NCBI GenBank assembly: GCA_020161615.1
Contig: JAIUPD010000001.1
Coordinates: 62,001 to 126,000, forward strand
Direction: 5' to 3'
DNA from: Pseudomonadota bacterium
GTDB lineage: Bacteria; Pseudomonadota; Alphaproteobacteria; Rhodobacterales; Rhodobacteraceae
DNA: 64,000 nt
Under the pieces are notes generated by a model. That model was not told where the DNA came from, searched no databases, and saw only the letters and a list, made by a program, of their open reading frames with translations. This document shows positions 7,994-12,748 of the stretch, piece by piece. Position numbers and translations under genes: made by a program. The first letter of the stretch is position 1. The number at the start of each line of letters is the position of its first letter.

Positions 7994-8431
7994 CTATCTG
8001 TCGAGTCCCAGCGCCCGGTCGACCGAGACCCGGCCGGGTCCATAGGCCAGCACCGCCAGCAGGCTTGCCGCCCAGGTACCGTGCAGCACCCAGGCCTCGG
8101 GATAGACGAAGATCTGGATCACGGCCGTCATCGCCAGCAGCCCCGCAGCCGACAGCCGCGTGCAGAGCCCCGTGATGATCAGAACCGAAAACGCATGCTC
8201 GCCGAGCGTGGCCAGCACCGCGGCCCAATCCGGGGGGATCAGGGGCAGGGCGTATTCGTGTTCGAAGAGGTAAAAGGTCGAGGGTTTGATCGAGACTCCC
8301 TCGACCTTCGTCCGCGCCGACAGCCAGAAGGTCACGCCGACGAAGGCCCGCGCGGCGAGTTGCACCAGATCGGCGGGGACCAACCGTCCGGCGCGGGCAT
8401 TGGCTGACAGGATCCGGCTGGGCAGGGTCAT
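7994..8431 (-). CDS. DoxX-family membrane protein of the bufferin operon
   Basis: This is a 145-residue integral membrane protein of the DoxX family with about four hydrophobic segments: the LVQLAARAFVGVTFWLSARTKV opening, then stretches around WAAVLATLGEHAFSVLIITG, LSAAGLLAMTAVIQIFVYP and WAASLLAVLAYGPG. DoxX proteins are commonly found at the end of DUF692/DUF2063 (bufferin-type) operons, and this gene overlaps bufC by ATGA, so it is the fourth cistron of bufA-bufB-bufC-doxX. A role in membrane redox or copper handling is inferred from context only. Confidence 0.85.
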   Translation of the reverse strand: MTLPSRILSANARAGRLVPADLVQLAARAFVGVTFWLSARTKVEGVSIKPSTFYLFEHEYALPLIPPDWAAVLATLGEHAFSVLIITGLCTRLSAAGLLAMTAVIQIFVYPEAWVLHGTWAASLLAVLAYGPGRVSVDRALGLDR

Positions 8432-9159
8432 GGCGTTTCTCCGATCTCGGTGATGAGCTGGTGGCGGATCAGCAGGGCCAGCAGCGGGGTTGGGTCAGTC
8501 TCGGCTTCGGCCAGCGGCAGGCCTTGCAGCAGGGCGCAGAGCAGGCTGTGGCTCTCGGCGGTCAGCGGTTCCACCAGCACGGCAAGGCCCGGATTGCGCG
8601 CGATCAGCGCCTGCTCGGGTCCGGCCCGCAGCGGTTCGGGCGCCGCGCCGGGCTGGTTCAGGCGCCAGAGGCTGACCGCGGGGCTGGCGGCCGCGAAGGC
8701 CTGGACCGAAGGAGCGAGCCGCAGGACCAGCCGTTCGGGATCCGTCTGGCCGAGCTTCGCCGGGTCGGCCGGGGCCGCGTCCGGCGCGTGATAGGCCAGA
8801 CCGCGCAGCCATTCCAGCCGGGCGACATCGGGCAGATAGGGCAGCGATCGCGCCGGGGGAAAGGTGGCCAGAAAGCCCGCGAAGGACGCGCCCCAATCGA
8901 GAAGGACCGGCGATCGCGGCGGATGGCTGGCTGCAAAGACCCGGGCCATGGCGGCGAAGAACGCGACGCCGACCAGCCGCTCGATCACCGGGAAACGGGC
9001 CGCCAGCGCCCGGGAGAGTCCGTGCTGGACATTGTTGCGGTAGATGGCAAAGCGGCGGTCGCGGCTGGGTTCGGGGCCAAGCCCCTCGGGCGTCCGGGGC
9101 GCCCAGAGCGCGGCGGCGATCCGCGCTTCGGTCAGGGCGTGATCGGCGGGAGGGGGCAT
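8428..9159 (-). CDS. bufC: DUF2063 (HvfC/BufC-type) partner of the MNIO enzyme
   Basis: The 243-residue protein has the DUF2063 N-terminal domain, seen in the conserved FAIYRNNVQHGLSRALAARFPVIERLVG and FFAAMARVFAASHPPRSPVLLDWG blocks (quoted here for recognition, both in the first third), and the LPYLPDVARLEWLR core. Proteins of this family are obligate partners of DUF692 (MNIO) enzymes and are thought to present the peptide substrate. I chose the ATG at 9159, which has GCGAGG upstream; a GTG at 9171 would add four residues. It lies 66 bases after bufB and overlaps doxX by ATGA. Confidence 0.88.
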   Translation of the reverse strand: MPPPADHALTEARIAAALWAPRTPEGLGPEPSRDRRFAIYRNNVQHGLSRALAARFPVIERLVGVAFFAAMARVFAASHPPRSPVLLDWGASFAGFLATFPPARSLPYLPDVARLEWLRGLAYHAPDAAPADPAKLGQTDPERLVLRLAPSVQAFAAASPAVSLWRLNQPGAAPEPLRAGPEQALIARNPGLAVLVEPLTAESHSLLCALLQGLPLAEAETDPTPLLALLIRHQLITEIGETP

Positions 9160-9225
9160 GGGGCCTCGCACTGGCGGGGGATCGGTTTGATTGGGTCAGG
9201 GGATGCTGGCAGGGTCCGAGGTACG

Positions 9226-10068
9226 TCAGGCCGCATGGACATCGCGCTGCCCGGCCAGCAGGGCCTCGGCGCGGCGGGCTTCGGCCAGCAGCGTCTCGAA
9301 ATCCGGAACGTCGTTGTCCCATTCAATGAGCGTGGGTTTCGGTCCGGTCCGGGCGATGACCTCGGCATAGAGCGTCCAGACCGGATCGGCGACCGGGCGG
9401 GAATGGCTGTCGATCAGCAGAGGGCCGTCCTCGAGCGTCTCGGCCTCGTGCCCGGCGAGGTGGATCTCGCCGACCAGTGCCAGCGGAAAATCGGCCAGAT
9501 AGGCGCGGGGATCGGTCCGGTGGTTCACCGCGGAAACGAAGACATTATTGACGTCGAGCAGCAGGCCGCAGCCGGTGCGCCGCGCGATCTCGCGCAGGAA
9601 ATCCGCCTCGGCCCAGGTGCTGTCGGCGAAGGTCACATAGGTCGCGGGGTTTTCCAGCAGCATCCGGCGGCCCAGAACCTCCTGCGTCTGGTCGATATGG
9701 GCGCAGATCGTGGCCAGCGTCTGATCCGTATAGGGCAGGGGCAGGAGGTCGTTCAGCCAGGCCGCGCCATGCGAGGACCAGGCGAGATGTTCCGAAAAGC
9801 TCTCGGGCTGATAGCGGTCGAGGAGCGCCTTCAGCCGGGAAAGATGCGCCGGGTCCAGAGGCGCCGCGCCGCCGATCGACAGGCCGACGCCGTGGATCGA
9901 GAGCGCATGCGCCGCGCGCAGCCGTTCCAGCATCGCATGGGGGGCACCGCCCGCGCCCATGTAATTCTCGGCATGGACCTCGTAGAAGGCGACGGGCGCG
10001 CCGAGGGCCTGGCGGAAATGCTCGGGCTTGAAGCCGAGGCCGGGGGCGTCGGGCAGACGGGGGGACAT
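9226..10068 (-). CDS. bufB: DUF692 multinuclear iron oxidative enzyme (MNIO) for bufferin maturation
   Basis: This is a 280-residue DUF692/UPF0276 protein, a TIM-barrel enzyme with a multinuclear iron site. Family blocks appear in order: [76 protein letters not shown] and LIEWDNDVP. The His, Glu, Asn and Asp residues in these blocks are the expected metal ligands. In described bufferin systems such enzymes turn cysteines of the precursor into 5-thiooxazoles that bind copper. AGGAG stands six bases before the ATG at 10068. It follows bufA by 53 bases and precedes bufC. Confidence 0.92.
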
Positions 10069-10089
10069 GGCGGGCTCCTGTCGGGGAAG

Positions 10090-10116
10090 GGGCCGCCCCG
10101 GGGCGCGGGGCGGCCC
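10090..10116 (-). terminator. Intercistronic hairpin between bufA and bufB
   Basis: A perfect 10-bp G/C stem (GGGCCGCCCC with GGGGCGGCCC, loop of 7) begins 5 bases after the bufA stop codon. It has only TTCC after it and no T-run. It may be a weak terminator or a 3'-end stabiliser that lets the small precursor be made in excess over its modifying enzymes. Confidence 0.6.
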
Positions 10117-10121
10117 GGGGA

Positions 10122-10499
10122 TCACATCATGACCGGCATGTAGGTCTCGGCCACCGCCATGTCGAAGCCCGCGGGCAGGTCGCGGTTGATGCCGGGACCA
10201 TAGCCGCCGGCCTCGAGCTGCTCGGCGGTGGCGCCCATGCGGGCATGGCCCATACCGTCGGCCGGCAGTTCCATCGTCGCGCAGGTGCCCGCCGGGACCA
10301 GCGTCCAGGCATTGCCCTGGTAGTCGATGGTCGAGGTGCCGGCGCAGCTGGTGCCCGGACCGGCGGCGCAATCGTTCTGCCCGGCCAGCGAAACGCCGTA
10401 GCAGCGCTCTTGCGCCATGTCGTCGGCCTGGGCGGCGCCGGCGGCCAGCGTCAGGGCGGCAGCGATCGAGGCGGCGAGGATCGGGGTTTTGGTCTTCAT
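10122..10499 (-). CDS. bufA: Bufferin-type precursor peptide (DUF2282 family), exported
   Basis: The 125-residue product starts with a Sec-type signal: MKTKTP, a hydrophobic run to about residue 20, and a likely cut near AQA-DD (residue 25). The mature part has the DUF2282 pattern [32 protein letters not shown], with four cysteines at 33, 44, 52 and 73. In described bufferins the outer two cysteines form a disulfide and the inner two are made into thiooxazoles, giving a periplasmic copper-binding peptide. Unusually, about 50 residues follow the last cysteine; they contain seven methionines and one histidine. It is first in a four-gene operon behind an ECF-type promoter, with GGGAG before the ATG. 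The family call is strong; the metal is inferred. Confidence 0.9.
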
Positions 10500-10551
10500 G
10501 GTTGGGATCTCCCGGTTGAAGGCCCCGCATCCGTTGCGGGCCTGCCAGACA

Positions 10552-10578
10552 GGACGGCGCGGCGGGGCGCGTCGTTAC
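10552..10578 (-). promoter_or_regulatory. ECF-sigma promoter of the buf operon
   Basis: On the minus strand GTAAC (10578-10574) and CCGTCC (10557-10552) are separated by exactly 16 bases, about 53 bases before the bufA ATG. The same GTAAC-N16-CCGT arrangement stands before the divergent sigma gene, which is what is expected if the sigma factor drives both arms. Confidence 0.75.
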
Positions 10579-10636
10579 GCCTGTTCACGCAGCCGTGACA
10601 TCGGCGCGTTTTTCGTCGATCTTGGCGCCGGGCGGT

Positions 10637-10663
10637 GTAACAACACCCGCCATTGCACCGTAT
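10637..10663 (+). promoter_or_regulatory. ECF-sigma autoregulatory promoter of sigF-nrsF
   Basis: GTAAC at 10637-10641 and CCGTAT at 10658-10663, 16 bases apart, match the buf operon promoter base for base in both core boxes (GTAAC, CCGT). Transcription would start around 10668-10672, only a few bases before the GTG I call as the sigma start, which raises the question of the true start codon. Confidence 0.7.
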
Positions 10664-10673
10664 CGGAGGTCGC

Positions 10674-11222
10674 GTGCCCCCCCTGGACGAGCCGAGCTGG
10701 GAGACGCTGATGCGCGCCGCGAACCGCGGCGACCAGCGGTCCTATGCCCGGCTTCTGGGGGCGGTCACGCCGGTCGTGCGCGGGATCGTCCGGGCACGCG
10801 GCGGGGTGCTCGGCCCCGAGGCTTGCGAGGATGTGGTGCAGGAGGTGTTGCTGACCATCCATCTGAAACGGCAAAGCTGGCGCGAGGATGCGCCGCTCCG
10901 CCCCTGGCTCTATGCTGTGACGCGGCACAAGGTGGTGGATGCGTTCCGCGCCCGGGGCCATCGGGTGGAGATCCCGGTCGAGGATGTGGCCGAGATCCTG
11001 CCCGCGCCGCAGGGCGAGGACCCGTTCGAGGCGCGCGATATGGCGCGGGTGATCGGGCGGCTGGAGCCCCGCGCGGCCGAGATCGTGCGCGCCATCGGCA
11101 TCGAGGGCGAAAGCGCGGCCGAGGCGGGCGCCCGGCTGGGCATGAGCGAAGGCGCCGTGCGGGTGGCGCTGCACCGGGCCTTCAAGTCGCTGGCCAGGCT
11201 GCGGGAAAGGATGATCGAATGA
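10674..11222 (+). CDS. sigF: ECF RNA polymerase sigma factor, SigF type
   Basis: This is an ECF (sigma-70 family group 4) factor of 182 residues with region 2 (ACEDVVQEVLLTIHLKRQSW, PLRPWLYAVTRHKVVDAFRAR) and region 4 (IGRLEPRAAEIVRAIGIEGESAAEAGARLGMSEGAVRVALHRAFKSL, shown in part by GMSEGAVRVALHRA). The next gene is a DUF1109/NrsF anti-sigma, overlapping by ATGA, the arrangement known from Caulobacter SigF-NrsF, which responds to heavy-metal and oxidative stress. I call the GTG at 10674 because GGAGG stands four bases upstream. An ATG at 10710 with GGGAG before it is a real alternative, since the candidate promoter would put the transcript start almost on the GTG. Confidence 0.88.
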   Translation: MPPLDEPSWETLMRAANRGDQRSYARLLGAVTPVVRGIVRARGGVLGPEACEDVVQEVLLTIHLKRQSWREDAPLRPWLYAVTRHKVVDAFRARGHRVEIPVEDVAEILPAPQGEDPFEARDMARVIGRLEPRAAEIVRAIGIEGESAAEAGARLGMSEGAVRVALHRAFKSLARLRERMIE

Positions 11223-11851
11223 AGACCGACGCGCTGATCGCGGCCCTGGCCGCCGATACCACACCCCGGGTCGCCCCCGGCGCCCGGCTGGCGCGGGTGC
11301 TGCCGGTGGCTTTCGTGGTCTCGGGCCTCATGCTCGTCGCTTTCTGGCATGTGCGCCCGGACCTGGCCCAGGCGCTGACCTCGGCGCCGGTCTACAAGAC
11401 GCTGGTGCCTATGGTGCTGGCCCTGGCGGCGCTGTGGCTGGCCCGCGGCATGGCCCGGCCCGAGGCGCGGGTCGGGGCCGAAGCGGCCCTGGTGGGGGTT
11501 CTGGGGCTGGGGATGCTGGCGGCGCTGGTCTATGGTCTGTCGACCAACAGCCTTTCGGAGATCGGCGCGCTGCTCGATACCCGCGATTTCGAGAATTGCC
11601 TCGTCTCGGTGCCGGTGCTGGCGGCCTTGCCGCTGGGGGGCGCGCTCTGGGCGCTGAAGGCGGGCGCGCCGCGGAACCCGGCGCTGGCCGGGGCGGCCGC
11701 GGGGCTTCTGGCGGGCGGGCTGGGGGCGGCGGTCTATTCGCTGCATTGCCCGCATGACCCGCTGATGTATTTCCTGCCGGCCTATGGGGGTGCGATGCTG
11801 ATCGTGGTGGCGCTGGGTGCCCTGATCGGGGGACGGGTCCTGCGCTGGTAG
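11219..11851 (+). CDS. nrsF: DUF1109 membrane anti-sigma factor, NrsF type
   Basis: The 210-residue protein has six hydrophobic segments and a short N-terminal cytoplasmic part (MKTDALIAALAADTTPRV), the layout of NrsF/DUF1109 anti-sigma proteins that hold an ECF factor at the membrane. Two cysteines stand alone, at residues 127 (DFENCLVS) and 177 (SLHCPHDP), 50 residues apart. The conserved periplasmic cysteine pair of the family is thought to sense metals or oxidants by changing redox state. The start overlaps the sigma stop by ATGA, so production of both is coupled. It should release the sigma factor under stress and thereby switch on the buf operon. Confidence 0.88.
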   Translation: MKTDALIAALAADTTPRVAPGARLARVLPVAFVVSGLMLVAFWHVRPDLAQALTSAPVYKTLVPMVLALAALWLARGMARPEARVGAEAALVGVLGLGMLAALVYGLSTNSLSEIGALLDTRDFENCLVSVPVLAALPLGGALWALKAGAPRNPALAGAAAGLLAGGLGAAVYSLHCPHDPLMYFLPAYGGAMLIVVALGALIGGRVLRW

Positions 11852-12040: not shown

Positions 12041-12748
12041 ATGAACATCTGGAAACGGCTTCGGCTCGCGTTCGGGGGACACAAGGCCGAAAAGGACCTC
12101 TACAGCCAGACCCTCGGGGCGCTGCAGGTCGAGGACAAGGGCAGCTATTCGCTGGTTACCTACCAGCGCGACGGCGTCTTCGATTACGAGGCCTATCGCC
12201 GGATCCAGACCGAGGGCAACAAGCGCAAGCTGACCACGGTCTTCGTGCAGCAGGAGGTGATCAGCGCGCTGGCCGATTACGCCACGGCGCGCGGCCCCGT
12301 GCGCCGCGTGATCTGCCACGGCACCCGCAACGCCGCCGAGCAGAGCTTCTTCAAGGCCGCAATCCCCGGCGTCGATGTGCTGGGGACCGAAATCTCGGAC
12401 ACCGCCACGCAATTCCCCGACACGATCGAATGGGATTTCCACGAGATTCGCGCCGATTGGCCGGGGGCTTTCGATATCCTCTACTCGAACAGCTGGGATC
12501 ACAGCTACGATCCGATCAAGCTGTTCGCGGCCTGGTCGTCCTGCGTTGCGCCGGGCGGGATCATGGCGCTGGAGCATAGCTCGCGGCACGAGCCCAAGGC
12601 GGTCAACGCGCTGGATCCTTTCGGGGTCGATTTCGACGGGCTGGTGTCGCTGGTGACCGCCAATCCCGGCATGACGTTCGAGGCGGCGCTGGATTTCGGC
12701 GGGCGGCGGCAGCGGCGTCTGGCGATCTTTCGCAAGGCCGGCGACTGA
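12041..12748 (+). CDS. Class I methyltransferase-like protein of unknown substrate
   Basis: The 235-residue protein reads as a Rossmann-type methyltransferase with an atypical first motif: the usual glycine-rich loop is replaced by VICHGTRNAAEQSFF, followed by VDVLGTEISDTA (the acidic residue that would bind the ribose) and FDILYSNSWDHSYDP in the motif IV position. WSSCVAPGGIMALEHS matches the motif V-VI region. I have seen the CHGTRN...GTEIS pattern in uncharacterised methyltransferase-like proteins, but cannot name a substrate. AGGA stands 8 bases before the ATG. It stands alone between repeat-rich gaps (189 bases before, 194 after). No membrane segment or signal is visible. Confidence 0.65.
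   Translation: MNIWKRLRLAFGGHKAEKDLYSQTLGALQVEDKGSYSLVTYQRDGVFDYEAYRRIQTEGNKRKLTTVFVQQEVISALADYATARGPVRRVICHGTRNAAEQSFFKAAIPGVDVLGTEISDTATQFPDTIEWDFHEIRADWPGAFDILYSNSWDHSYDPIKLFAAWSSCVAPGGIMALEHSSRHEPKAVNALDPFGVDFDGLVSLVTANPGMTFEAALDFGGRRQRRLAIFRKAGD

Follow-up and report, generated by a model that had tools for sequence, protein, structure and literature searches.

The copper-buffering peptides known as bufferins are encoded in clusters whose core consists of genes for a precursor, an MNIO enzyme, a DUF2063 protein and a DoxX protein; genes for a sigma factor and for NrsF occur, as the clusters have been described, in the Buf1 and not in the Buf2 type (PMC12452194). In Buf1 peptides the two central cysteines are modified, the first and last cysteines form a disulphide, and the product sequesters copper, bufferins being reported as protective against this metal (PMC12452194); such peptides have been grouped as captophorins (PMC13097082). 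Here we analyze a locus of this kind in a 64 kb stretch of DNA (the window, in whose positions all coordinates are given) from the 4.87-Mb genome of a Pararhodobacter-like member of the Rhodobacterales. It is highly probable that the locus represents a Buf1-type (DUF2282) bufferin cluster under the control of SigF-NrsF and that it works by the mechanism proposed below. This kind of system is already known, since the same gene set has been described in Caulobacter, where it adjoins sigF-nrsF as it also does in a genome survey, and in the bufferin and captophorin papers; the part that looks new is the composite promoter of bufA, which joins a SigF element to a palindrome.

In Caulobacter, the operon CC3254-CC3257 lies beside sigF-nrsF and depends on SigF, for which the binding sequence GTAACC-N16-CGAA has been given; the SigF regulon responds to chromium and cadmium, and a further regulator of the sigF operon is left unnamed in that account (PMC3511200). 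The regulon also takes in msrPQ. Under the conditions tested, copper induced sigF, nrsF and the operon, although in one condition two of the genes passed only a laxer test; a sigF mutant is reported as sensitive to copper, with a sensitivity to chromium and cadmium like that of its parent (PMC8224329).

The bufferin cluster and its conservation

The window contains a complete cluster, bufA-bufB-bufC-doxX, on the minus strand, divergent from sigF-nrsF on the plus strand (Table 1). An earlier note, made from the sequence alone, had described just such an MNIO operon, with an ATGA overlap at its end, beside a divergent sigF-nrsF pair in a Rhodobacterales genome; all of these genes were recovered at the positions given there, with scores above the Pfam cut-offs, and the profile search that it had proposed as a check places the small protein BufA inside DUF2282. 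The order of the genes is that of Buf1 clusters: a DUF2282 precursor with four conserved cysteines, the MNIO gene next to it and the DUF2063 partner third. BufB additionally matches Pfam MbnB_TglH_ChrH (352.3 bits, cut-off 25) and the solved MNIO-family structure 3bww (E 8.4e-42), the same PDB sequence searches having returned no relative for BufA or BufC, and SigF matches NCBIfam PRK12512 (204.6 bits, cut-off 198). One MNIO match, one DUF2282 match and one NrsF above the cut-off were found in the genome, together with one weak partial NrsF match below it. Assignment to BufA2 or to an HvfABCX/oxazolin cluster was rejected: NCBIfam Cu_RiPP_BufA2 scores 19.5 bits for a cut-off of 60, the HvfB, HvfC and HvfX models reach 234.8 of 360, 52.9 of 142 and 40.5 of 80 bits, respectively, and the oxazolin precursor repeat EGKCG is absent from BufA.

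Table 1. Genes and predicted promoter elements of the bufferin locus (window positions; Pfam or NCBIfam score with its cut-off)
Feature	Position	Strand	Description	Support
bufA	10122..10499	-	Buf1 bufferin precursor, 125 aa	Pfam DUF2282 85 bits (22.4)
bufB	9226..10068	-	MNIO (DUF692) bufferin maturase, 280 aa	NCBIfam MNIO_BufB 381.9 bits (310)
bufC	8428..9171	-	DUF2063 partner protein, 247 aa	Pfam DUF2063 82.5 bits (27.2)
doxX	7994..8431	-	DoxX-family membrane protein, 145 aa	Pfam DoxX 61.9 bits (23.6)
sigF	10674..11222	+	ECF (extracytoplasmic function) sigma factor, 182 aa	Pfam Sigma70_r2 36.4 (24), r4_2 40.2 (25.7)
nrsF	11219..11851	+	Membrane anti-sigma factor, 210 aa	Pfam NrsF 143 bits (26.8)
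Predicted SigF promoter of bufABC-doxX	10554..10578	-	GTAAC-N17-CGT, -35 box at 10578-10574	
Predicted SigF promoter of sigF-nrsF	10637..10661	+	GTAAC-N17-CGT	
Palindrome	10585..10598		TCACG-N4-CGTGA, predicted operator of a putative second regulator	

The bufC/doxX overlap lies at 8428-8431 and sigF/nrsF share an ATGA overlap likewise; bufA and bufB are separated by 53 nt, and bufB and bufC by 54 nt. The start of bufC is a GTG, an ATG at 9159 being a possible alternative. For sigF, listed as 10653-11222(+) with a TTG start, the GTG at 10674 is the likelier start because it sits behind a GGAGG and the TTG falls inside the promoter. The neighboring frame at 12041-12748 encodes a protein of 235 residues that resembles a small methyltransferase by eye; neither Pfam nor NCBIfam gave a match at E 0.001, and PHROGs returned nothing useful.

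Two samples of relatives were compared, both biased towards close relatives of the query, and kinship of the sequences inflates all counts. The named sample comprises 81 loci, the window and 80 relatives picked by BufB similarity; bufA and bufC are present in 80 of them each, doxX in 76, nrsF in 64 and sigF in 63, and the nearest named locus is that of Pararhodobacter zhoushanensis (BufB identity 86%). Given this conservation and the Pfam scores, a chance occurrence of the operon was rejected. The family sample comprises 66 loci, hand-picked among the matches listed, of which one belongs to the genus of the window; the samples overlap slightly, sharing two identical upstream regions. Of 248 genomes sampled from the family, 178 yielded BufA-like genes, and 10 of 18 genomes of the genus yielded a DUF2282 gene. 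Within the 8 kb fetched around each family locus, sigF-nrsF is present in nine; loci lacking the pair in that interval are termed SigF-less here, and sigF may sit elsewhere in their genomes. A BufB tree, built by a quick method from 146 rows and rooted at the midpoint, falls into two parts, SigF-linked loci making up 1 of 66 in one part and 70 of 80 in the other, and the SigF label changes 9 times over the tree against a mean of 49 when shuffled. The window belongs to the part rich in SigF-linked loci, where it is placed in a group of 14 rows with good support. One record, labeled Novosphingobium sp. MW5 (L008), has a bufferin locus very near that of P. zhoushanensis (L005), and its label may be wrong.

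BufA has a Sec-type signal peptide, as read by eye, and its cysteines 33, 44, 52 and 73 are invariant in an alignment of 20 rows; the AlphaFold2 model (mean predicted local distance difference test score, pLDDT, 55) is too poor to interpret. Past the last cysteine extends a tail of 52 residues with 7 methionines. Tails in the genus measure 52-70 residues at eight of ten loci and 27-28 at the other two, and tails of at least 40 residues, found in 15 of the 146 rows, require at least 6 changes on the BufB tree. The methionine enrichment of long tails is only modest (72/784 residues, versus 220/3032 in short ones); this, the short-tailed loci of the genus and the published range of Buf1 lengths weaken a methionine-rich tail as a strong novelty. 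As a separate observation, 19 Hyphomicrobiales loci carry two tandem bufA genes (L033, L039-L044, L047, L052, L053, L055, L056, L060, L062, L063, L065, L070, L075, L082), and in 18 of them the first copy has a short xHxC stretch before the third cysteine instead of the usual PGTTC.

Predicted divergent SigF promoters and the NrsF cysteines

The sequence GTAAC-N17-CGT occurs twice in the whole window, against 0.21 matches expected, and the two matches face bufA and sigF. The same arrangement recurs in the 55 divergent loci (54 relatives and the window), where GTAAC-N17-CGW is found bufA-ward in 47 and sigF-ward in 46, with 0.15 and 0.35 in dinucleotide shuffles, which served as the null, and where both elements are present in 40 loci (shuffles, 0.0). 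Of these 40 loci, 36 have the same -10 variant in both promoters (20 CGT/CGT, 16 CGA/CGA; the other 4 are mixed), as would be expected if one sigma factor reads both, the relatedness of the loci inflating this agreement. Elements of the form GTAAC-N16/17-CG(A/T) before both sigF and its target are what characterizes ECF16 promoters, and they are present here. Within the family sample, the bufA element accompanies sigF-nrsF, being found at 8 of 9 loci with the pair versus 2 of 57 without it (Fisher p 6.8e-8), or 8 of 9 versus 5 of 57 if spacers of N16-18 are allowed. Across the 4.87-Mb genome, the genus-derived pattern GTAACR-N16-CGTM, built partly from the window's own two sites, has four matches (reversed-pattern control, 26), two of them at the window locus. 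The other two, by eye one in a coding frame and one between convergent frames, were taken as chance.

NrsF also conforms to the ECF16 type, in which the sigma factor is paired with an adjacent six-helix NrsF (DUF1109) protein that has two conserved cysteines. It has six hydrophobic stretches, modeled by AlphaFold2 as six long helices (mean pLDDT 86), and 63 of 64 rows retain both Cys127 and Cys177, which lie 50 residues apart. Loop charges place both cysteines opposite the positive loops, and they are predicted to lie on the periplasmic side. The earlier note had cast them as the sensor pair; their presence is borne out, and the word sensor goes beyond the published evidence, because in Caulobacter NrsF single cysteine mutants were still inducible and the possibility of a disulphide within the molecule was excluded (PMC3511200). 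By this analogy, the pair is to be regarded as important for NrsF function rather than as a proven sensor. The NrsF of L061 is the only one of the 64 to lack both cysteines, with alanine and valine in their place, and offers a natural test of the sensor idea.

A palindrome abutting the bufA promoter

A perfect palindrome, TCACG-N4-CGTGA, is found upstream of the bufA promoter at a distance of 6 nt from the -35 box, and it is the only match in the 64 kb (0.09 expected). The motif emerged when spaced words were counted in the regions before bufA at the 57 SigF-less loci of the family sample; the CGTGA/TGACG dyads so obtained were read as a palindrome, which had also been noticed in the window by eye. 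A site was called if at least 9 of its 10 positions matched and it lay within 250 nt. It points to a putative second regulator acting at the bufA promoter. The palindrome might instead be part of an extended SigF promoter, or an element of DNA structure, and its spacing speaks for this: the gap to the -35 box is 4-6 nt in 35 of 44 palindrome-promoter pairs at SigF loci and thus nearly fixed. By locus, such a gap is found in 24 of 30 named Rhodobacterales, in 8 of 9 of the family sample and in 1 of 29 Hyphomicrobiales, all with SigF. The distribution of the site argues the other way. It is present at 8 of 9 family and 28 of 62 named loci with SigF (shuffles 0.0 and 1.0), and it is also present at 39 of 57 SigF-less family loci, which are the discovery set, and at 8 of 17 named ones (shuffles 0.8 and 0.2). 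When the named SigF loci are divided by order, two loci with short upstream regions having been dropped, the palindrome is found in 24 of 30 Rhodobacterales and in only 2 of 29 Hyphomicrobiales, so that SigF promoters of the latter order mostly do without it; among named SigF-less Rhodobacterales, it is found in 7 of 12. A tally that took the -35 box as its sole anchor and did not select loci by the palindrome gives the same picture: the palindrome is clear in 35 Rhodobacterales loci, and 25 Hyphomicrobiales loci have an A-rich tract in that position.

Further evidence against a mere promoter extension comes from paired sites. A spacing of exactly 15 nt between two copies (8 or more matches each) is seen at 37 of the 57 SigF-less loci of the family sample and at 3 of 18 of the named sample, at none of the 71 SigF loci and in none of the shuffles of the SigF-less sets. 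Besides the window, palindrome sites were observed at L162 and within the series L173-L237, which also contains the paired-site loci of the family sample.

The palindrome also recurs away from bufA. Each of the 10 DUF2282 loci detected in the genus lies close to a perfect copy, and the 18 genus genomes hold 73 sites against 11 for the reversed control. The host genome holds four perfect palindromes (reversed control, 0); this number proves nothing alone, because about five would be expected by a hand estimate from base composition, and it lends some weight to the structural reading. Perfect copies with a changing spacer stand just upstream of a DUF1194 (VWA) gene at 7 of 11 loci and before a gene for a COX1-like membrane protein of 124 residues at 3 of 3, the host's own copies included in both; the two genes were chosen because their copies in the host have the site, and the COX1-like loci are close relatives within the genus. 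Such copies before unrelated genes also count against the structural reading. The host's own copies lie at L243 3520-3533 (DUF1194 gene) and L244 3446-3459 (COX1-like gene), in its own genome, C5. Among 14 msrP-type loci scanned, some from the same genome, a site with 9-10 matches was placed between the fasciclin gene and msrP in three, those of the host genome, G006 and G007 (L160 1932-1945, L282 1501-1514 and L151 1896-1909), gene starts being unrecognized at the majority of the remaining loci. A regulon that joins the bufferin to msrP is plausible because in Escherichia coli copper stress induces msrPQ, which protects the methionines of CusF (PMC9302797). Many of the 52 stretches around palindrome sites in the genus lie in or near unrelated genes and probably reflect chance.

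No regulator of the site emerged from the candidates considered, which favors the structural reading to some extent. CopR/CusR (TIGR01387) was rejected as the binder, with no member above the cut-off in any of the 18 genus genomes, and the most frequent neighbors in the 57 SigF-less loci, many of them wrong-strand frames, offered no obvious regulator on reading by eye. We found no mention of the palindrome in the open-access literature searched, and it may still be published. On these data, a promoter extension or structural element appears unlikely. We lean, with some reserve, towards a putative Rhodobacterales transcription factor that recognizes TCACG-N4-CGTGA and governs a small copper/oxidation regulon of the envelope, acting alone at SigF-less bufferins via two sites 15 nt apart and jointly with SigF via one site abutting the -35 box; its other targets in the genus would be the DUF1194 (VWA) gene, the COX1-like gene and the fasciclin-msrPQ region. 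The locus had earlier been taken for a self-contained island; this it probably is not, because the bufA promoter carries a second conserved site that is shared with SigF-less loci and with a few other genes.

Proposed mechanism and relation to described systems

We propose that, at rest, NrsF would keep SigF at the inner membrane and that a thiol-reactive metal in the periplasm would perturb NrsF and free SigF; copper is the likeliest such metal, cadmium, chromate and other soft metals being possible. The freed SigF would transcribe bufABC-doxX and its own operon from the two divergent GTAAC-N17-CGT promoters, with the putative second regulator, bound to the palindrome just upstream of the -35 box, modulating the bufA promoter. 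BufB and its partner BufC would turn the central Cys44 and Cys52 of BufA into thiooxazoles, BufA would be exported by Sec, its outer cysteines 33 and 73 forming a pair, and would chelate Cu(I), and DoxX may serve as an accessory membrane protein. The conversion of cysteines to thiooxazoles, as put forward in the earlier note, would thus hold for the two central positions and has to be withdrawn for the first and last, which form a disulphide in Buf1 peptides as described (PMC12452194).

Several observations weigh against this interpretation. One or both strict promoter elements are missing in 15 of the 55 divergent loci. Since 57 of the 66 family loci are without sigF-nrsF in the 8 kb fetched, linkage to SigF is not general in the family. 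A GTAAC-N16-18-CG element is absent from the 4.7 kb fetched around the genome's msrP, and SigF control of msrPQ in the host was rejected for this reason. NrsF falls far under the NCBIfam AntiSigF_NrsF equivalog cut-off (96.4 versus 300 bits), and among NCBIfam models bufC and doxX match only HvfC and HvfX, both below cut-off, so that exact functional equivalence is not assured.

That the metal would be copper is well supported by homology. A rather improbable alternative is that the bufferin serves another soft metal, such as gold, silver, mercury or cadmium: the gig cluster of Cupriavidus is upregulated by gold, silver and copper (PMC8224329), Caulobacter SigF answers chromium and cadmium (PMC3511200), and fusions of MerC with bufferins exist (PMC12452194), but the protection reported for bufferins is against copper (PMC12452194), and it is copper, not chromium or cadmium, to which the Caulobacter sigF mutant is more sensitive than its parent (PMC8224329). 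The cluster of C. metallidurans was without effect on copper resistance, for which its authors cite redundancy (PMC8224329). It is very unlikely that the locus serves mainly in defense against oxidants (hypochlorite), with SigF-NrsF sensing reactive chlorine and the methionine-containing BufA tail acting, as has been suggested for MrpX/BcrX, as a sacrificial scavenger that MsrP recycles: a Brucella ECF16 pair does control a methionine-rich peptide with msrPQ in an operon that answers HOCl (PMC8315932), the BufA tail does contain its 7 methionines and the host genome does have a 9-of-10 palindrome between the fasciclin gene and msrP, but the locus encodes the MNIO and its partner in full as well as the four cysteines of Buf1, none of which belongs to the bcrXQP operon as described, the methionine excess of long tails is slight, the SigF element was not found near msrP in the interval fetched, and two of the ten bufA loci of the genus have short tails.

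The favored reading, a SigF-controlled copper bufferin, extends the known copper-buffering peptide system to another genus. The comparison of promoters makes the question of regulation testable, both for the further regulator of the Caulobacter sigF operon and for the many family loci without sigF-nrsF nearby: the site, which bufferin promoters of either class have in common, offers a concrete bait with which to find a second regulator and might account for the control of SigF-less bufferins.

Among the systems compared, Caulobacter crescentus (CC3257-CC3254, with sigF as CC3253 and nrsF as CC3252) shares the gene set, a bufferin operon adjoining sigF-nrsF, as well as similar promoters before both operons and the spacing of 50 residues between the NrsF cysteines, there C131 and C181. 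It differs, as far as described, in the -10 element (CGAA, versus CGT in the window), in the length of BufA (93 residues, versus 125) and in a regulon that includes a second DUF2282/DUF692/DUF2063 operon and msrPQ-type genes, whereas a single bufferin locus was found in the window's genome. The palindrome is described here for the window's bufA promoter. The gig operons of Cupriavidus metallidurans and Legionella, compared by description only, are bufferin clusters that answer gold and copper. Brucella BcrS-AbcS (ECF16/DUF1109) shares with SigF-NrsF the type of sigma factor, a six-helix anti-sigma factor with cysteines 50 residues apart (C129, C179) and a promoter type, (T/C)GTAAC-N17-CGAA, akin to that of the window, and as described it controls a methionine-rich peptide with msrPQ rather than a bufferin operon (PMC8315932). 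With the Buf1 bufferins, or captophorins, the locus shares the DUF2282 precursor, the Sec signal, the four cysteines, the MNIO, DUF2063 and DoxX proteins and the optional sigma factor and NrsF (PMC12452194, PMC13097082); its BufA tail is longer than in most relatives examined, yet the peptide stays inside the 30-835 residues reported for Buf1 (PMC12452194).

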